Source of the DNA: Hymenobacter rigui
GTDB taxonomy: Bacteria; Bacteroidota; Bacteroidia; Cytophagales; Hymenobacteraceae
NCBI RefSeq assembly: GCF_003944715.1
Contig: NZ_RWIT01000005.1
Coordinates: 1 to 64,000, forward strand
DNA: 64,000 nucleotides
Direction: 5' to 3'
Shown: one piece after another, positions 53,041 to 61,720 of the stretch
Layout of the letters: each line of letters starts with the position of its first letter
How positions within the stretch are numbered: the first letter of the stretch is position 1
Notes under the pieces: model-generated
What the model saw: only the letters and a program-made list of their open reading frames with translations
Databases searched by the model: none
What the model was told of the DNA's origin: nothing
Made by a program: the position numbers and the translations under genes

Positions 53041-53167
53041 TGGATTGGTGGTTGGGTGGTTGGGGAGGATGAGTGGTTGGGTTGCTGAATGAGCGAACGG
53101 GTAGAAAACCGTTCAACAATTCAACCATACAACAGTCCAACCACCTAACCACCCATTCAACCATTAC
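53041..53167. repeat. Palindromic octamer array (TGGTTGGG / NNCAACCA)
   Basis: Left arm at 53041-53080: TGGATTGG, TGGTTGGG, TGGTTGGG, GAGGATGA, GTGGTTGG (phase taken from 53041, approximate). Right arm at 53112-53167: TTCAACAA, TTCAACCA, TACAACAG, TCCAACCA, CCTAACCA, CCCATTCA, ACCATTAC. It lies between the divergent M13 and xseA genes and ends 14 nt before the xseA start. Confidence 0.7.
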
Positions 53168-53180
53168 CTTTACATCTGCA

Positions 53181-54665
53181 ATGCCGCTCTACAACCGCCG
53201 CCCCGAGCCGGGCCTTCCTGCTACCAAAAACCTGCCGCCCGCTGCTATGCCCCTGAGCGAGCTGCTGGCCCGGGTGCGCCAGACGCTGAGTGAGCGGTTT
53301 GCCGACTCGTACTGGGTAGTGGCTGAAATTGCCGACCTCACCCTGCCCCGCTCCTACGGCGCACATTGCTACCTCACCCTCACCGACCAGCACACCACCG
53401 GCCGGGGGGCTCAGCTGAAGGCCCAGGCCCGCGCCACCATCTGGAGTGCCCGCTATCAGCAGCTGGCGGCGGCATTTGAGGAGCACACGGGCCTGACGCT
53501 GCGTACGGGCCTGAAAATTATGCTGCGCGTGCAGGTGAAGTTTCACGAGCAGTTTGGCCTGAGCCTCGATGTACTGGCCCTCGACCCCACCTACACCGTG
53601 GGCGACCTGGCCCGCCTGCGCCTCGAAACGCTGCGCAAGCTGCAGGCTCAGGATCTGCTGGAGCGCCAGAAACGCCTGACGCTGCCCCTGGGTATCCAGC
53701 GGGTGGCCGTTGTTTCCTCGCCTACGGCCGCCGGCTGGCAGGATTTCGTGCATCAGCTACAGGAAGCCCCCTACGATTTCGCTCTGACCCTCTTCCCAGC
53801 TCTGATGCAGGGTGATGACTCCCCGGCCAGCATCCGGGCGGCGCTGGACAGCATCCGGCCCCGCCGCCGGGAGTTTGACGCGGTGGTCATTATCCGGGGC
53901 GGGGGCTCCAAAACCGATTTGCTGGCCTTCGACGACTACGGCCTGGCCGCTGCGGTGGGCTCGTTTCCGCTGCCCGTGCTTACCGGCATCGGCCACGAGC
54001 GGGACGAGGCGGTGGTGGACCTGACTGCGCATATTGCCCTGAAAACCCCTACGGCCGTTGCCGCTTTCCTGATTGAGCGGCTGGCCCGACTGGAAGCGGC
54101 GCTGGAAGGCTACGGCGGCCGCATCCGGGAGCTGGCGCAGGCCCGGGTGCAGCTGGAAACGGCTCACCTCAGCCGGGTGCTTCGGCAGACGCAGGTGGCC
54201 GCCCAGACCCAGCTGCAAACCCACCGCAACACGCTGCACCAGCGCATTCGGGTGGCGGCGGCCACGCCCCGCGCCCAACTGCGACACCAGGAGCAGCAGC
54301 TTACCCGCCGCCGCCACCAGATGCACCGCGCCGCCCGCAGAGCCCTGCGGCAGCAGGAGCAGCTGCTGCGTACCCGGGGCCGGGCGCTGGCCGGCCGCTT
54401 CCGCCGCCTGCACCGCCGCCGCCGCGAGCAGCTGCTCCGGCAGCAGCACGTGGTTCAGCTGGCCGCAGTCCGGTTGCTGCACCGCGTTGAGCTGCACCTC
54501 ACCCGGCTGGAAACAGCGCCGGCCGCGGGCACTGTGCGCCTGCTCACGCCCAAAGGCCGCCCCTTTGCCGGCCCGCTGCGCCCCGGCCAGGAGGTGCTGC
54601 TGCGCCTCCCCGACGCGGTGGTGCCGGCGCGCATTGGCGGGCAGCTGCCCTTGTTTCTTCCTTAA
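53181..54665 (+). CDS. xseA: Exodeoxyribonuclease VII large subunit
   Basis: A 494-residue XseA. The N-terminal OB-fold (about 20-120, LSELLARVRQTLSERFADSYWVVAEIADLTLPR...HCYLTLTD) is followed by the catalytic core (about 155-450), with RVAVVSSPTAAGWQDFV, VVIIRGGGSKTDLLAFDDYGLAAAV and TGIGHERDEAVVDL, all family hallmarks. The long Arg/Gln-rich coiled coil (about 300-440) contacts the small subunit. The enzyme degrades single-stranded DNA from either end with XseB. TACCTTTA lies about 15 nt before ATG 53181; upstream in-frame codons are the octamer array. xseB follows 15 nt downstream. Confidence 0.95.
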   Translation: MPLYNRRPEPGLPATKNLPPAAMPLSELLARVRQTLSERFADSYWVVAEIADLTLPRSYGAHCYLTLTDQHTTGRGAQLKAQARATIWSARYQQLAAAFEEHTGLTLRTGLKIMLRVQVKFHEQFGLSLDVLALDPTYTVGDLARLRLETLRKLQAQDLLERQKRLTLPLGIQRVAVVSSPTAAGWQDFVHQLQEAPYDFALTLFPALMQGDDSPASIRAALDSIRPRRREFDAVVIIRGGGSKTDLLAFDDYGLAAAVGSFPLPVLTGIGHERDEAVVDLTAHIALKTPTAVAAFLIERLARLEAALEGYGGRIRELAQARVQLETAHLSRVLRQTQVAAQTQLQTHRNTLHQRIRVAAATPRAQLRHQEQQLTRRRHQMHRAARRALRQQEQLLRTRGRALAGRFRRLHRRRREQLLRQQHVVQLAAVRLLHRVELHLTRLETAPAAGTVRLLTPKGRPFAGPLRPGQEVLLRLPDAVVPARIGGQLPLFLP

Positions 54666-54680
54666 GTTTTACTCGTACCT

Positions 54681-54908
54681 ATGTCGCCCCAAAACCTTAC
54701 ATACCGGCAGGCCATCGAAGAGCTGGAAACCATTCTGCGCGCGCTGGAAACCGATGCCGTGGACGTGGACGACCTCACGGCCCGCGTGCAGCGCTCCGCC
54801 GAGCTGATTCGTTTGTGCAAGCAGAAGCTCCGCTCCGCCGAATCGGCCATTGACCAGGTATTTGAAAACCTGGAAGAAGAGGAGGACGAAGAATATCCGA
54901 CAGAGTAG
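54681..54908 (+). CDS. xseB: Exodeoxyribonuclease VII small subunit
   Basis: A 75-residue XseB, a two-helix protein: LTYRQAIEELETILRALETDAVDVDDLTARVQRSAELIRLCKQKLRSAESAIDQVF matches the family over its length, and the acidic tail (LEEEEDEEYPTE) is typical. It binds the coiled coil of XseA. It lies 15 nt after xseA, in the usual operon order. Confidence 0.95.
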   Translation: MSPQNLTYRQAIEELETILRALETDAVDVDDLTARVQRSAELIRLCKQKLRSAESAIDQVFENLEEEEDEEYPTE

Positions 54909-54987: not shown

Positions 54988-55335
54988 ATGACCAACGACG
55001 ACCTGCAACAAGCCAGCGCCTGGACGCGCAACTACCGGAACCAGCACCCCGGCGGCGTAAAGGGCCACTGCCTGTCAGCCGCGACGCTACAAGCCATTCT
55101 GAGCCAGCCCAACTGCGCGGGCGTACGCGCTTACTACGGCCTCGATGATACGGGGGCACCCAAGCTGATTCTGGTGGGCTATGATGCCAACGACAACGAC
55201 ATTCTGGACGGTCCGTCGGTAGCGGCCCGAGGCGCGGAAAGGCAGGAAGCTACGGGGGGCAGCAGTTTTCAGATTGATGTTAACCCGCCTCCCTGCCCCC
55301 CCTGCTGCAGCATTGACAACCCACTGAACAGCTAG
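54988..55335 (+). CDS. Small Cys-tailed protein, copy 1 of a duplicated module
   Basis: A 115-residue protein without signal peptide or TM helix. It shares a scaffold with the product of 56221-56529: AxxWTRNYR near 11-17, a helix AATLQAILSQ, C43-x-G-V-R47-x-Y49, LILVGYDAND, and a tail CPPCC ending NPLNS. The conserved Cys43, Gly45, Arg47, Tyr49 and the Cys cluster suggest metal binding, disulfide formation or lipid/tail processing, but no function is known to me. It is followed after 13 nt by a membrane-protein gene. Similar small proteins with a Cys-x-x-Cys-Asx-Pro-Leu tail are, from memory, common in Bacteroidota. Confidence 0.7.
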   Translation: MTNDDLQQASAWTRNYRNQHPGGVKGHCLSAATLQAILSQPNCAGVRAYYGLDDTGAPKLILVGYDANDNDILDGPSVAARGAERQEATGGSSFQIDVNPPPCPPCCSIDNPLNS

Positions 55336-55348
55336 TTAAGGCAACTCA

Positions 55349-56035
55349 ATGCCTACGTGGTTCATAACCTTTTGCAAAGTAACCGACCTGCTGGTATACT
55401 GGACATTGCTGGTGCCTTTCGTCTTAGCTCATCGGCGCCGTACGCAGCTTACGGGTGGGTTGGTTACGTTGCGTTTTGTGCCACTGTTTCTGTTTGTTAT
55501 CTATTGCCTCATGCAGGTTGCTATTGCCCTATGGCAGTATAACCTGCCATTGGTTCATCTGAATACTATCGGTGAAGCGCTGCTTTATATGAAAGTATAT
55601 CATGATGAGTTTGTAGACGAGAAAACGAAACGCTCTATCCGCGTCATTGCCGTAATATTCCTTGTGTTTGCAGCGCTGGATTCCTTTTGGCTGGAAGGGT
55701 TTGGGCGCATCAATTCTTACACCAACCTGGCCGAGAGTATCATCATCATCAGCCTGGGGCTACTCTACTTTGAACGCACCTTAATCGGCAGGCGTCGTAC
55801 TCAGCTTCAGAGGGTTCCGTTGTTTGTGGCTACCATCGGCATTATTCTGTACCTCTCGGGTACGGTGGTATTATACTTGGCCACCAACCACTTTATTCAG
55901 CTCAATGACGAGTATAACACCCGGCTCATGTACTTAATCAACTCGGTACTGGTGCTCGTGCTGGGGCTACTGTTTTCACGCGCTTTCATACTGGTCAAGC
56001 CGCAACCTCAACCACATACATTGTCTGCACGGTAG
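55349..56035 (+). CDS. Polytopic membrane protein (about seven TM), copy 1
   Basis: A 228-residue integral membrane protein with about seven hydrophobic segments and short loops. It is homologous to the protein at 56635-57351; the best conserved stretch is GRINSYTNLAESIIIISLGLLYFERTL followed by LFVATIGIILYLSGTVVLYL. There is no recognised family; the fold could be a sensor of the 7TM type. It is co-directional with its small partner 13 nt upstream, and part of the cluster that ends in a kinase. ATG 55349 is clear. Confidence 0.7.
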   Translation: MPTWFITFCKVTDLLVYWTLLVPFVLAHRRRTQLTGGLVTLRFVPLFLFVIYCLMQVAIALWQYNLPLVHLNTIGEALLYMKVYHDEFVDEKTKRSIRVIAVIFLVFAALDSFWLEGFGRINSYTNLAESIIIISLGLLYFERTLIGRRRTQLQRVPLFVATIGIILYLSGTVVLYLATNHFIQLNDEYNTRLMYLINSVLVLVLGLLFSRAFILVKPQPQPHTLSAR

Positions 56036-56145
56036 CGCTTCCAGTACCTTGAACATTTTATATTTTTAATTTTTACACTAAAGCTCCTAATAACAAGTAA
56101 ACAACCGCTTTATGATTGGTTATGTAGTATTTAATGACCCTTATT

Positions 56146-56153
56146 CAACTTTG
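56146..56153 (+). promoter_or_regulatory. -7-like box CAACTTTG before the second small-protein gene
   Basis: Seven of eight bases match TAnnTTTG, in a 185-nt AT-rich gap between the two modules. It suggests the second module has its own promoter. Confidence 0.4.
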
Positions 56154-56220
56154 CATTACATCTAATAATTATGATATTTCACCTAGCTTACTCACCTATT
56201 CACTTTACCTACATTCCTGC

Positions 56221-56529
56221 ATGTCCCTCACACCTACCGACGGCGAGTTCATTGACCTGAACGATGCCAAATCCTACACCAAATCATTCCGGGAAACGTA
56301 TTCCGGCCAGTCGAAAGCACAGTTCTTCGGCACTGCCAACCTGAAAGACATTACCGACCAGGAAGACTGCGTTGGCATTCGTATTTACAACGCCATTGTG
56401 AACGGGCAGACCTGCTACGTGCTGGTAGGCGCTACCGCCAGCGGCGACGACCTCGCCAACGGGCTGCTACTGGCCTGCGGTCCGGTTTGCCCGGGTGTCT
56501 GCGACACAAGCAGCCCGCTCTATTCCTGA
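56221..56529 (+). CDS. Small Cys-tailed protein, copy 2
   Basis: A 102-residue paralogue of the protein at 54988-55335. Shared features are AKSYTKSFRE, ANLKDITDQ, C50-x-G-I-R54-x-Y56, YVLVGATAS and a Cys-rich tail (CGPVCPGVC) ending SPLYS. No TM or signal peptide. A terminator (56547-56578) follows, so it may be transcribed separately from the membrane gene that comes next, unlike copy 1. ATG 56221 was chosen; codons upstream in frame are AT-rich leader. The unusual spelling of both C-termini (CPxxC...PL-x-S) points to a shared recognition or processing step. Confidence 0.7.
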   Translation: MSLTPTDGEFIDLNDAKSYTKSFRETYSGQSKAQFFGTANLKDITDQEDCVGIRIYNAIVNGQTCYVLVGATASGDDLANGLLLACGPVCPGVCDTSSPLYS

Positions 56530-56546
56530 GCTGGCCCGCAACCAGG

Positions 56547-56578
56547 AAAGCCTCATCGGAACCCGGTGAGGCTTTTTT
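56547..56578 (+). terminator. Rho-independent terminator after small protein copy 2
   Basis: aagcctca pairs with tgaggctt across 12 nt, followed by TTTTTT. Confidence 0.85.
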
Positions 56579-56590
56579 GCTATCAACGGG

Positions 56591-56598
56591 TATTTTTC
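56591..56598 (+). promoter_or_regulatory. -7-like box TATTTTTC of membrane protein copy 2
   Basis: Seven of eight matches to TAnnTTTG, just past the terminator at 56547-56578; would start transcription near 56605, about 30 nt before GTG 56635. Confidence 0.45.
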
Positions 56599-56634
56599 CG
56601 GATATTCGCTGCCCTCACGTGTACGCCGGCTTCA

Positions 56635-57351
56635 GTGAATCATTCTCTACTTTATCTGGGAATATCAACCGACTTCATCCTCCGGTTTTCCAAGCTTCTG
56701 GGCGTGGCGGCATCATTCACCAGCCTGATACCGGCATGGTACGGCATCCGGCGCTGGCAGCAGCTTACGCCTGCCATACGCTATATCGCCTGGTTTGTCA
56801 TCGTGCCCGGCGCAGTGCTGGGTATCGGGGCTGAGGTAGGCCGCTGGGTCTTTCGCTACAATCTGGTTATCCTGTCTGCTGTCACGCTTTGCGAGACGGT
56901 GCTGCTGGCGGGGGCCTACGCGCGGGCTCTGCACTCGCCCAGAATACGCTGGTGGTTTAAAAGGGCCGTCGGGCTTTTCCTGCTGGTAGCGTGCGTAGAG
57001 ACGGGCTTATCGGTACATTTCAGCAGGCCCATCAATAATTACAGCCATTTTCTCCAGACGTTTATCTGCATCGGGCTGGCATTTGCGTATTTCGAGCAGC
57101 TACTGCGGGAGTTGCCCAACATTCATCTGGAGCGGGACCCCATGTTTCTGGTGAGTGTGGGAGTCTGCCTGTATTACACCGGCAGCATCACTATTTTCAT
57201 GCTGGAGCCCTACATGCAGAAACAGCATACTACCCTGCAGCTTTGGATAATGTTTATTATTCAGTCGGCCCTATACATGTTGCTGAATGGCTTTATTATG
57301 CTGGCCTTACACTACGAAGGGCACGTTGCCCAGCGGCAACGGCTCCTGTAA
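56635..57351 (+). CDS. Polytopic membrane protein (about seven TM), copy 2
   Basis: About 238 residues from GTG 56635. The open frame extends upstream to 56566, but that start lies inside a terminator. It is homologous to the membrane protein at 55349-56035: RPINNYSHFLQTFICIGLAFAYFEQLL and MFLVSVGVCLYYTGSITIFML align with the copy 1 segments. Like copy 1 it has no recognised family. It is 101 nt upstream of the histidine kinase gene, which has one TM helix and no sensor domain of its own, so a role in delivering a signal to that kinase is plausible. Confidence 0.65.
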   Translation: MNHSLLYLGISTDFILRFSKLLGVAASFTSLIPAWYGIRRWQQLTPAIRYIAWFVIVPGAVLGIGAEVGRWVFRYNLVILSAVTLCETVLLAGAYARALHSPRIRWWFKRAVGLFLLVACVETGLSVHFSRPINNYSHFLQTFICIGLAFAYFEQLLRELPNIHLERDPMFLVSVGVCLYYTGSITIFMLEPYMQKQHTTLQLWIMFIIQSALYMLLNGFIMLALHYEGHVAQRQRLL

Positions 57352-57451: not shown

Positions 57452-58264
57452 ATGAATAGTTGGCTGTTTCCTGTGTTGCTGGCTACGCCGGTGCTGCTTT
57501 TGCTGGCGCTGGGCATTGTGGGCTTTGTGCTGCGCTATCAGCGGCGGCTGCTGCGCCAGCAGGAAGAAATGCGCCAGATGCACGAAAATGCCCAGCAGCA
57601 AGCCCTGGAAGCCGCTCTGCTGGCGCAGGAGGAGGAGCGCCGCCGCATTGCCGCCGACCTGCACGATGGGGTGGGCACTACGCTGGCCATTGTAAAGCTG
57701 CACCTGAATACCCTCAACCAGCCCGACCTCACTGGGGAAGCCACCATTCTGCTGGACCAGGCTATTAACGAAGTACGCCGTATTTCGCGCAACCTGCTGC
57801 CGGCGGCGCTGCAGAAGTTCGGGCTGTCGTTTGCGCTGGAAGCCCTGGCCCGCACCATGCCGGCCGATGGCCCCACCCACGTGGAAGTAGAGCAGCACGG
57901 CACCCCCCGCCGCCTCGACCCCAAGCAGGAACTGATTGTGTACCGGGTGGTGCAGGAGCTGCTGGGCAACGGCCTGCGCCACGCTCACGCCAGCCTGATT
58001 CGTATTGAGGTGGAGTATGGTCCCGATTTTATGGCCCTGCGCTACTCCGATAACGGCGTGGGCTTTGACCCCACCGTGCCGGACCAGCCACCGCTACCCG
58101 GCACCCGCACCGGCCTGGGACTCACCAACCTACGCAGCCGGGTAGGCGTATTACGCGGAACCCTCCGCCACGAATCGGCGCCGGGACAGGGCACCCAGGT
58201 TTGGATTTCCTTGCCCCTGCCGTATCTTGTTACCAACCAGGCTACTAGCCTCTCCTTTGCATGA
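57452..58264 (+). CDS. HisKA_3 (NarX/LytS-like) sensor histidine kinase without sensor domain
   Basis: A 270-residue kinase. One N-terminal TM helix (about 4-28) and a short coiled linker precede the dimerisation helix with phospho-His71 in DLHDGVGT. The HATPase_c domain shows VVQELLGNGLRHAHAS (N box), YSDNGVGFD (G1) and GTRTGLGLTNLRSRVG (G2). No periplasmic or PAS/GAF domain is present, so input must come from a partner, presumably the membrane proteins upstream. The ATGA overlap (58261-58264) couples it to the response regulator. Confidence 0.88.
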   Translation: MNSWLFPVLLATPVLLLLALGIVGFVLRYQRRLLRQQEEMRQMHENAQQQALEAALLAQEEERRRIAADLHDGVGTTLAIVKLHLNTLNQPDLTGEATILLDQAINEVRRISRNLLPAALQKFGLSFALEALARTMPADGPTHVEVEQHGTPRRLDPKQELIVYRVVQELLGNGLRHAHASLIRIEVEYGPDFMALRYSDNGVGFDPTVPDQPPLPGTRTGLGLTNLRSRVGVLRGTLRHESAPGQGTQVWISLPLPYLVTNQATSLSFA

Positions 58265-58686
58265 GCACTCCTTCCATTCGCTTGGCTGTCGTCGACGACC
58301 ATATTCTCTTTCGAAAAGGCCTGCGGGCGCTCATCAGCGGTTTTCCGGGTATGGAAGTGCTGTTTGAAGCCGGCGACGGGCAGGAGCTGCTGGAACGGCT
58401 GGATCAGGGCACCGTACCGGATGTGATTCTGATGGACCTGCAGATGCCGGTGCTGGATGGCCTGCAAACCGTACGGCTGCTGCGGGCTCAGTACCCGCAG
58501 GTACGATCTATCATCATTTCCATGCACGATGAGCCGGAGCTGATTGACTCCCTGCGGGCCGAAGGTGCCCACGGCTATCTGCTCAAAAATGCCAGCCCCG
58601 AAGAAGTGCTGGGCGCCATTCAGCAGGCCGTTGATACCAGCCCCGGCTCCGGTACGGCGTGGGCCATTCTGAAGGCTTCGTTCTGA
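58261..58686 (+). CDS. Receiver-only response regulator
   Basis: A 141-residue protein that is a NarL-type receiver domain: VVDDHILFRKGL with the acidic pair D12 and D13, phosphoacceptor D59 in DVILMDLQMPVLDG, and K in YLLKNAS. NarL/FixJ regulators are about 210 residues with a LuxR-type HTH after this point; here the protein ends in AVDTSPGSGTAWAILKASF and no HTH coding region is seen before the terminator. It may be truncated or work through a partner. It overlaps the kinase gene by 4 nt. Confidence 0.9.
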   Translation: MSTPSIRLAVVDDHILFRKGLRALISGFPGMEVLFEAGDGQELLERLDQGTVPDVILMDLQMPVLDGLQTVRLLRAQYPQVRSIIISMHDEPELIDSLRAEGAHGYLLKNASPEEVLGAIQQAVDTSPGSGTAWAILKASF

Positions 58687-58792: not shown

Positions 58793-61540
58793 CTACAGGC
58801 CCACCGACATACCGATGGTGAACGTGCGGCCTTTGTTGAAGAAAGCCTGCAGCAGGTTGGGGTCTACCACGTTGCTGCTGTTGCGGTTCGATACATCCGT
58901 GAAGTAGTACTGGTTCAGCACGTTCAGCACGGAAGCCCGGAAACCTACGCGTACCTTCTCGTGGTACATAGGGCGCAGGTCGTAACCAAAGTGCATGTCC
59001 ACGTTCTTGCTGGTGGGCAGGCGGTAGGCATCGGTGCGGGAGTTTTCCTCCAGGATGCTTTCGGGGTTGAAGGCCGCATAGTATTTCGAGAATACCAGCA
59101 GGGAAGGCCGCACGTAGAAGCCCCGGATGGGCTCGTAGCGCAGGCCCAGCTGGAATTGGTTCTGGGCAGCATCCCCCACGTGTACGCCATCCAGGTACAC
59201 TGGCTGATCCACGGGGTTCACCTGAACGCCGGCTTCCGTTACCTGGTTCAGCAGGCCTTTGCCCGTCCAGCGCCAGTCGCCGATGGCAATGGCGGCATTC
59301 AGCTGCAGGCTGCGGCTGATTTCCTGGGCTACGCTCATTTCCACGCCCATGTGGCGGGCATTCACGTTGCGCACCGTGTTGTACACAATGTCGGAGCCGT
59401 TGTTGGTGACAGAGTTGCTGCTCTTGTTGGCCCACAGAATGTAGTACGCGTTCAGCGTGGCCTTCAGGCTGGGGTAGCTAATGCCGTACCCCAGCTCTAC
59501 CGACGTGATACCTTCGGGCTTCACATTGCGGTACAGCACGCCCTGCGCGTTATACACCTGGTTGAAGAACGGCACCTTGCTGTTGTAGCCGACGTTCATG
59601 AACAGGTTATTCCGCTCCGTTACGTTGTAGTTGGCACCGGCTTTCAGGCTGTAACCCGTGAAATCGGCCCAGGGCGTTTCCAGGAAATGCCCGTCGGCGG
59701 CCGTGTACGTCTGCCCGTTGATGGTCTGGGTCTGGTTAAAAGCCACGTCGTAGCTCTGGCCATCCACCGTTACCTGCTTGGGCCGGAAGTAGTCGATGCG
59801 CTTGTAGCGGATTTCCGATACAGTGCCGCTCACCACCGCCGACAGTACCGGCGTTTTGTACTCCAGCTGCGCGTAGCCGCCCAGCCACTGGGTTTTGCCA
59901 TCGTAGTTGAAGCCGATTTTATCCCCCTTGTACAGCTTGGTCGTTGGGTCGATGTTACGGTCACCCGCGTTGGTGATGCTGGTGTTCAGGTAGGTGTGGT
60001 CGCCGCCCAGCAGGTCGCGCACCTCGCGGTAGTGCAGGCCCTTGTACAGGCGCCCATCCACCCCCGCCGACAGGGTAATTTTGTCGCCGAGTGAGTAGTC
60101 GGCTCCCACTACGCCGCCGTACCAGCGGTGGCTGTTCACGCTGTTTACCAGAAACTGCGAAGAGCGCCGCGTGGGGTTTTTGCTCAGGTCGTAGTTGTTC
60201 TCGTAAATCCGCTGGAAGTCCGTCTGCAGCGTCGTGGAATTCTGCAGAATGGTCCCAGAGTTGGCCGAGGTCAGGCCGCTGACCCCGCCCCCGTTGCCAA
60301 ACGAGGCATAGGCCACCGCGCTGATGAACAGCTTGCTGTTCACCTGCCAGTAGTCGTTGAGGTTGATCTGGGGCTTGTGGTAGTAGTTGCTCCGCTCGTT
60401 CAGGGTTTCTTCACCCTGATACACCTTATTGCCGCTGGCATCAGTAGTATAGCGGTTCAGCTTTCCCCAGTACGGGTTGAACTGGAACCCTCTGTTGCCG
60501 TTGGCCAGCGGTGCCGCGCCAATTTCCTGCGCCTTCTCGGTGGAGAACAGGCCTACCTGCTGGGCAAAGATGCGCTGCCCGTGGCTTTGCGGGGAGCCCA
60601 GCCCGGTGAGGGACAGGCGGTGGTTGCCCAGCTTCTTGCTGATGTTGCCGAAGTACGTCCAAGCATCGTCGAAGGCGTGGTCCACCCACCCATCGGAAGT
60701 GCGGCGGGAGCCGTAGAACGTGAAGGCCCAGTCGCCTTTCCGCATACCGCTGCTCAGCATCAGGGAGTATTTCTGGTAGTTGTTGGAGCCGGTTTCGATG
60801 CGGGCCAGAGCTGCTTTCTTATCATCGAAGCCCCTGGTAAGCACGTTGATGGTACCGCCCACGGAAGGCACCGATATTTTAGAAGCCGAGAGGCCGCGCT
60901 GCACCTGCAGGCTCTTGGTTACGTCGCCCAGGTCCCAGTTCGACCAGAATACCTGGCCGGTTTCCATGTCGTTGACGGGTACACCGTTCACCAGCACGGC
61001 CACGTTGCGCTGGTCGAAGCCCCGGATGTTGATGCGCGAGTCGCCGGTGCCGCCGCCGCCCTGGGTGGCGTACACGCCGGGCGTCTCGTTGAGAATCATC
61101 GGCAGGTCACGGTTCGAGAGGGTTTCGCGCAGCTTCACCTCATTCACGGCCGCAAATGCCACCGGAGTGGAGCGCTCTACGGCTACCCCCAGCGAGCCAA
61201 CTACCTGCACCTCGTTAAGAGTAGCGTTGTCGGAGGTGAGGCTGAAGGTGGCCGTGGTGTTCTGGTTGTTCACCGTTACCTGCTGCTCCAGCACTTTGTA
61301 GCCGATAAAGGAAGCCCGCACCGTGTACGTGCCCGATTTCAGACCGGGTACGCTGTAGGAGCCGTTTTCCTCGGCACCGCCCCCGGTGTTTACCCCATTC
61401 CCGACTACCTGCACGGTAGCCCCCGGCAAAGCCTCGCCCGTCAGTTTGTCCAGCACGCGCCCTTTGATGGAATACGTGGCCTGAGCCACCGCTCCCACCG
61501 AAGTAGTCATTAGAACTCCAGCAAGTAAAAAATGCTTCAT
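58793..61540 (-). CDS. TonB-dependent receptor with carboxypeptidase-like N-terminal domain
   Basis: A 915-residue outer-membrane receptor. Signal peptide (about 1-20), a carboxypeptidase-D-like beta domain (about 24-105, YSIKGRVLDKLTGEALPGATVQVV), the plug (about 115-235, with NDMETGQVFWSNWDLGDVTKSLQVQRG and GGTINVLTRG), then a large 22-strand-type barrel ending TFTIGMSVGL. It is probably for uptake of a siderophore, oligosaccharide or vitamin; the substrate is unknown and no SusD partner is adjacent. ATG 61540 precedes the signal peptide. A terminator (58731-58775) follows it. Confidence 0.92.
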   Translation of the reverse strand: MKHFLLAGVLMTTSVGAVAQATYSIKGRVLDKLTGEALPGATVQVVGNGVNTGGGAEENGSYSVPGLKSGTYTVRASFIGYKVLEQQVTVNNQNTTATFSLTSDNATLNEVQVVGSLGVAVERSTPVAFAAVNEVKLRETLSNRDLPMILNETPGVYATQGGGGTGDSRINIRGFDQRNVAVLVNGVPVNDMETGQVFWSNWDLGDVTKSLQVQRGLSASKISVPSVGGTINVLTRGFDDKKAALARIETGSNNYQKYSLMLSSGMRKGDWAFTFYGSRRTSDGWVDHAFDDAWTYFGNISKKLGNHRLSLTGLGSPQSHGQRIFAQQVGLFSTEKAQEIGAAPLANGNRGFQFNPYWGKLNRYTTDASGNKVYQGEETLNERSNYYHKPQINLNDYWQVNSKLFISAVAYASFGNGGGVSGLTSANSGTILQNSTTLQTDFQRIYENNYDLSKNPTRRSSQFLVNSVNSHRWYGGVVGADYSLGDKITLSAGVDGRLYKGLHYREVRDLLGGDHTYLNTSITNAGDRNIDPTTKLYKGDKIGFNYDGKTQWLGGYAQLEYKTPVLSAVVSGTVSEIRYKRIDYFRPKQVTVDGQSYDVAFNQTQTINGQTYTAADGHFLETPWADFTGYSLKAGANYNVTERNNLFMNVGYNSKVPFFNQVYNAQGVLYRNVKPEGITSVELGYGISYPSLKATLNAYYILWANKSSNSVTNNGSDIVYNTVRNVNARHMGVEMSVAQEISRSLQLNAAIAIGDWRWTGKGLLNQVTEAGVQVNPVDQPVYLDGVHVGDAAQNQFQLGLRYEPIRGFYVRPSLLVFSKYYAAFNPESILEENSRTDAYRLPTSKNVDMHFGYDLRPMYHEKVRVGFRASVLNVLNQYYFTDVSNRNSSNVVDPNLLQAFFNKGRTFTIGMSVGL

Positions 61541-61720
61541 GAAAAAGGGAAATACGACCCGCAAAGGAAATTAAGGGTGTAAAGGTACGGGTTTGAGAGA
61601 TAGTGCGTAAGCGGGGTGAGCGGGTTATTTGTCTACTTATTTTTTGATATTTTCAGCCTCCTTTCTATCCCCCGGCCGGGTACCAGAGCAACCTGCCCGG
61701 CTTTTCCTTCTGTACTTTTT

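Follow-up and report, generated by a model that had tools for sequence, protein, structure and literature searches.

How does a histidine kinase that carries no sensor domain obtain its signal? This question is raised by a locus in the window, a stretch of 64,000 nucleotides from Hymenobacter rigui (contig NZ_RWIT01000005.1, positions 1 to 64,000 of the forward strand), in which genes for two small proteins, here designated S, alternate with genes for two membrane proteins, designated M, ahead of a kinase gene and a regulator gene. Following the exonuclease VII genes, and all on the plus strand, these are s1 (54988-55335, 115 residues), m1 (55349-56035, 228 residues), s2 (56221-56529, 102 residues), m2 (56566-57351, 261 residues from a GTG codon), the histidine kinase (57452-58264) and the response regulator (58261-58686, 141 residues), whose first 4 bases overlap the end of the kinase gene. 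Two of the starts are uncertain, as the open reading frame of s2 extends upstream to 56134, where translation possibly begins, and family similarity in m2 is found only from about 56665, the domain starting at residue 34 of the frame. HisKA_3 and HATPase_c in the kinase and Response_reg in the regulator all scored above their Pfam cut-offs, identifying a two-component system. A sequence-only reading had noted these genes, their location and several shared motifs, and had described the kinase as possessing one transmembrane helix and no sensor domain, and the regulator as consisting of a receiver alone; inspection of the reading frames, Pfam and hydropathy analysis agreed on all of these points. 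Near its N-terminus, the kinase has a single membrane helix, which spans residues 8-26 (57473-57529), and the hydropathy rule flagged a further, weaker segment within HisKA_3. This kinase is the sole short one among the six HisKA_3 matches of its genome (a frame of 284 residues versus 620-1063), and the two S and two M matches of the genome all lie in this locus. We describe here that S and M constitute a real and widespread module found across several phyla, which probably serves as a detachable split receptor for signalling proteins devoid of their own sensor, acting through the membrane helix of the effector.

We examined the relationship between the two units, previously taken for a tandem duplication. 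The local alignment score of s1 against s2 was 111 (500 shuffles: mean 26.6, standard deviation 4.5, maximum 51) and that of m1 against m2 was 181 (mean 38.0, standard deviation 6.1, maximum 61). The scores far exceed those of the shuffled sequences, and the likeness in both pairs is thus not due to chance. S1 and S2 share the motifs CAGVRAY/CVGIRIY and WTRNYR/YTKSFR along with the tails CPPCCSIDNPLNS/CPGVCDTSSPLYS, and M1 and M2 share GRINSY/RPINNY and LYLSG/LYYTG. In gene trees, m1 and s1 each fall into a clade of 13 members with genes that occupy the first position in other clusters (support 0.995 and 0.94, respectively), while m2 and s2 join the M (0.99) and S (0.87) genes of S-M-M-M clusters. 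Since the m2 and s2 branches join paralogues from other Hymenobacter clusters rather than m1 and s1, the trees indicate that two old paralogous units stand side by side; the homology of the units is retained from the earlier proposal, but not a recent tandem copy. The usual gene orders in Hymenobacter are S-M-S-M-kinase-regulator, S-M-M-M-kinase-regulator and S-M-kinase-regulator, and one S gene together with three M genes ahead of one kinase was seen in loci L051-L055, L057-L059, L061 and L064.

The conservation of this arrangement was then surveyed in three sets of loci. Within the genus, M matches were present in 89 of 101 Hymenobacter genomes. Nearly all of the 60 loci fetched from these were chosen by an M match, so that the nearness of S and M in this sample is not an unbiased count. 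With the window included, the 61 loci contain 81 S genes, directly downstream of which lies M in 74 cases, another S in 4 and neither in 3. The 107 M genes are followed by a kinase (53), M (27), S (21) or another gene (6), and three of these six genes are kinases of another class (L079, L080, L084). In a phylum sample of 296 genomes, the S profile matched 36 and the M profile 52. Of 293 genomes outside the genus, 34 contain S and 49 contain M, with 30 containing both (Fisher p 8e-24, without correction for relatedness). For 35 of the 46 S places outside the genus, a same-strand M lies no more than 500 bp downstream. Sixty outside-genus loci, 44 chosen by S and 16 by M, were fetched and searched with refined profiles. 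M was the next gene for 48 of 51 S genes, with one S at a contig end and two followed by neither; for one of these two (L139), M was detected in another frame by a profile search. Of the 68 M genes in these loci, 52 precede a kinase, 7 another M, 1 an S and 8 another gene. Five of the last eight have a gene of 265-684 residues next to them (L133, L143, L149, L182, L188), and all four of those that were run against Pfam proved to be kinases.

The third set was selected by S only, using a pattern derived from seven S proteins against 84,980 bacterial and archaeal species genomes and taking the best 80 of 158 relatives. In 75 of the 80 loci, M came immediately after S, at a median gap of 4 bp. 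Among the five loci without a mapped M, three (L211, L220, L240) end close to S, and the other two (L242, L234) display, by eye, an M-like frame ahead of the kinase, masked in the map by overlapping frames. In the 75 loci, M is followed by a kinase within 1.1 kb in 68, by the contig end in 5, and in 2 by a protein with one helix, PAS and a LuxR-type helix-turn-helix (HTH). The expectation that S and M would be kept as neighbours in the company of kinase genes was thus borne out, but the module is not restricted to Bacteroidota; judged from record titles, it also occurs in Ignavibacteria, KSB1, Calditrichota, Marinimicrobia, Zixibacteria and Gemmatimonadota. The operon is also present in Pedobacter antarcticus ATCC 51969 (L263). 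One could still argue that S, M and the kinase are a co-inherited operon without any joint function, taking into account that neighbours in related species are not independent and that our counts are not corrected for phylogeny. We consider this scarcely credible, as the genes flanking the module differ between lineages, the class of the effector has changed, and the linkage spans several phyla.

The genes downstream of M were examined in detail. Among 179 genes of at least 200 residues located just after M in the three sets, 172 encode exactly one predicted membrane helix, five encode two and two encode none, one of the latter being a wrong frame in L061, where tblastn found the kinase intact. 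The first helix begins at residue 11 (median). In terms of effector class, Pfam identified HisKA_3 kinases, some with PAS domains (L132, L140, L217, L249), HisKA kinases (L080, L133, L143, L215 and L233 above the cut-off; L149, L078, L083 and L084 a few bits below it) and, in L182, a LytS-type kinase accompanied by a LytTR regulator. In two Zixibacteria loci (L208:3998-5832, L228:3995-6102), S-M is followed by a PAS-GerE (PAS-LuxR) protein with one helix, and no kinase was recognised there. The multi-part signalling system postulated in the sequence-only reading is thereby upheld as regards the linkage of S, M and kinase, but partners other than HisKA_3 kinases occur.

We compared the 42-residue helix regions of six Hymenobacter HisKA-group kinases with those of HisKA_3 partners, keeping L078, L081 and L083 of the HisKA group out of the HisKA_3 set; L079 and L081 were assigned to the HisKA group by likeness to the others and not by Pfam. 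The regions shared 22-27 identities over 39-42 residues and scored 97-132, compared to null maxima of 70-88 (300 shuffles each) and 46-79 for the rest of the protein. By this sequence comparison, the membrane helix in Hymenobacter stays alike though the kinase class differs. The likeness is weaker outside the genus, in a test whose HisKA_3 set still included L078, L081 and L083: six of ten effectors beat all 200 shuffles, L207, L208 and L209 were matched by 1-3 of 200, and L228 by 63 of 200. It had been left open whether S and M provide the input or the output of the system. Because the effector varies while S-M and the membrane helix stay constant, input is the likelier role.

What kind of protein is M? 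About seven transmembrane segments had been noted in each copy, and the hydropathy rule marked 6 in M1 and 7 in M2. An AlphaFold2 model of M1 displayed seven membrane helices (predicted local distance difference test, 95.7; predicted template modelling score, 0.91), the best fold matches of the model were rhodopsins and G-protein-coupled receptors (GPCRs), and the predicted inner loops are positively charged. M is thus predicted to be a rhodopsin/GPCR-like seven-helix bundle with its N-terminus outside and its C-terminus inside. In microbial rhodopsins the retinal-binding lysine sits in helix 7. No conserved Lys was found there in M, as 174 of 199 non-redundant M proteins have none inside the helix-7 columns, and none of 37 diverse M proteins matched the microbial rhodopsin profile PF01036 at E 0.01. 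The HisKA_7TM profile PF16927 likewise matched 0 of 37 at this threshold; an hhalign comparison of M with this family scored 22.1, not clearly above its controls (18.2 and 16.5 for reversed profiles, 12.5-21.5 for 12 permutations). HisKA_7TM resembles M in being a seven-helix unit as kinase input, but is fused to its kinase, whereas M is a separate protein. In the seven-helix CREST hydrolases, core helices 2, 3 and 7 bear the motifs SxxxH, Asp and HxxxH (PMC3146951); M does not show this motif set, as none of its helix-7 columns contains His at 45% or more.

Among the 37 M proteins, no Pfam family was matched above the cut-off, enzyme and transporter families included; three scattered matches at E 0.01 concerned one member each. 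Against NCBIfam, M1 had one match, below the cut-off, and M2 had none. As neither S1, S2, M1 nor M2 belongs to a family above the cut-offs, the earlier remark that no described family was recognised holds for Pfam-A and NCBIfam. These results bear on a further explanation, in which S assists M as a chaperone or in its assembly, or the kinase reads out an enzymatic or transport activity of M. S genes usually end a few bases from M, as those of assembly partners do, and some M genes stand without S or kinase (L073, L075). On the other hand, the lack of an enzyme or transporter match and the fact that one S can serve several M genes make this explanation very improbable. The M genes with neither S nor kinase (L073:7624-8346, L075:7129-7857) are located just after a gene that by eye is Mur-ligase-like.

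Concerning S, no Pfam family was detected at E 0.01 among 41 diverse proteins. The core conserved in 161 non-redundant proteins comprises C.GIR.Y, an LVGVD strand and a CPPxC tail; S1 itself is a small soluble protein with a CPPCC tail and no signal peptide by our rule. We considered whether S might be a secreted or periplasmic ligand-binding sensor, with M merely an anchor or relay. In streptomycetes, the small secreted protein HbpS acts on a membrane kinase with a regulator in the HbpS-SenS-SenR system (PMC4991794), and among the 161 S proteins 9 appeared lipoprotein-like and 14 displayed another signal or anchor, by a crude rule that misses some and makes this count a lower bound. The remaining 138 gave no export signal, however, and in 110 of the 161 there is no room for a signal peptide because no more than 16 residues separate the domain from the earliest possible start. 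S also differs from HbpS in that a separate seven-helix protein stands between it and the kinase, and we regard a secreted sensor as improbable.

Two other ideas on S were rejected. A strict three-cysteine site was not supported, for CPxxC is present in 101 of 132 tails but exceptions are many; the loop cysteine does tend to accompany a CPxxC tail (p 6e-4, not corrected for relatedness). A role as a modified-peptide precursor was discarded since no modifying enzymes were noticed beside S in the maps, in which no search was aimed at them. Genes just upstream of M that were missed by the S profile often resemble distant S proteins by eye (L076, L077, L086, L088, L177, L178, L187, L189, L190), and those in L073, L075 and L170 appear unrelated. 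Proteins with a double S domain were also observed (L050:7255-9496, L071:7749-8492, L072:7542-8285, L140:5381-6133), several with a lipoprotein-like N-terminus.

Taken as a split receptor, the module would operate as follows. M would be a seven-helix receptor of the rhodopsin/GPCR-like fold, and S its dedicated partner, setting or carrying the stimulus. M would pack against the lone membrane helix at the N-terminus of the downstream effector and shift it, altering the activity of the kinase or, in the two Zixibacteria loci, of a membrane-tethered DNA-binding protein. In the window, two S-M units would feed one HisKA_3 kinase, which would in turn phosphorylate the receiver-only regulator. We infer the S-M complex, the contact between M and the helix, and the direction of the signal.

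This proposal resembles several known systems. In the sensory rhodopsin II-HtrII pair of haloarchaea, a seven-helix protein signals to a distinct transducer through the membrane helices of the latter, and this transducer feeds into a two-component pathway (PMC12917780, PMC5292967). S-M would similarly combine a seven-helix receptor with a separate helix-bearing partner, but M lacks the conserved helix-7 lysine and a rhodopsin profile match, its partner is itself the kinase and has a single helix, and the small protein S is present in addition. The LytS-type kinase BtsS, which has seven transmembrane helices, binds pyruvate (PMC10653868); it and, as proposed, M are seven-helix receptors that have their N-terminus outside (predicted for M) and control a kinase, but the seven helices of BtsS lie within the kinase, whereas M is a protein of its own that is combined with effectors of several classes. 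Judged by profile and key residues, M belongs to neither of these receptor families. A more ambitious interpretation, to which we give even chances, is that a retinal-free receptor of the rhodopsin fold together with a small partner docks on one membrane helix, representing a bacterial counterpart of receptor-transducer pairs in several phyla with outputs that can be exchanged: kinases of three classes and a transcription factor tethered to the membrane.

A further known system is LiaF-LiaS-LiaR of Bacillus subtilis, a three-component system consisting of an accessory membrane protein that inhibits LiaRS, a HisKA_3-type kinase and a NarL-type regulator (PMC3543457). As in that system, M is a membrane protein encoded alongside a HisKA_3-type kinase and a regulator, and the window kinase resembles LiaS-like kinases (NCBIfam LiaS, E 7e-22, far below the cut-off). 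M might therefore be a LiaF-like accessory regulator without a ligand of its own, which restrains a kinase sensing the state of the membrane and is tuned by S. We consider this unlikely. The effectors include PAS kinases and a PAS-LuxR protein, which are not known to sense membrane stress. M is a complete bundle of seven helices from a different family, and S is an additional component. Membership in the LiaF family was not found, as no Pfam family was above the cut-off in the 37 M proteins.

Should S-M indeed be their receptor, this would supply a likely input for a set of kinases without sensors in Bacteroidota and the phyla close to it, and would assign a role to two families that Pfam does not cover. 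The exchange of kinase class beneath a similar helix would, if true, be a natural experiment in which one receptor is joined to different outputs. We found no description of the S-M pair in the literature, judged by titles and abstract openings of open-licence papers, which is weak evidence of absence.

How, then, would the signal leave the regulator? No HTH was found near the window regulator on its strand, and it does not display the DNA-binding domain of NarL-type regulators. The HTH seeds were the last 68 residues of 114 outside-genus regulators, used without a separate check. A regulator was present by rule in 51 of 60 genus loci with M. Forty-three of these are 131-162 residues in length, with no same-strand HTH in or near them; 4 longer ones likewise show none, and 4 have one. 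The short form is common in the genus and is therefore not a single broken gene. Most regulators outside the genus are 205-242 residues long, and a Pontibacter locus (L236:3992-6300) encodes a short one of 138 residues; the short form may thus predate Hymenobacter. Having no DNA-binding domain, the regulator in the window would have to act by protein contact.

As for the surroundings of the module, the relatives of the window genes, where named, are all from Hymenobacter. The exonuclease VII genes just upstream of s1 occupy 53073-54908 (XseB by Pfam, XseA by eye), and in many relatives a gene of about 500 residues takes this position. In one family of the same class (L152:5720-8935), S-M-kinase-regulator follows AccA and DnaB genes (Pfam), and several relatives have equal gene lengths. 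Downstream of the operon in the window, a gene that by eye is TonB-dependent receptor-like (58793-61564, minus strand) is convergent to it, and genes of similar size come after the operon in several relatives.
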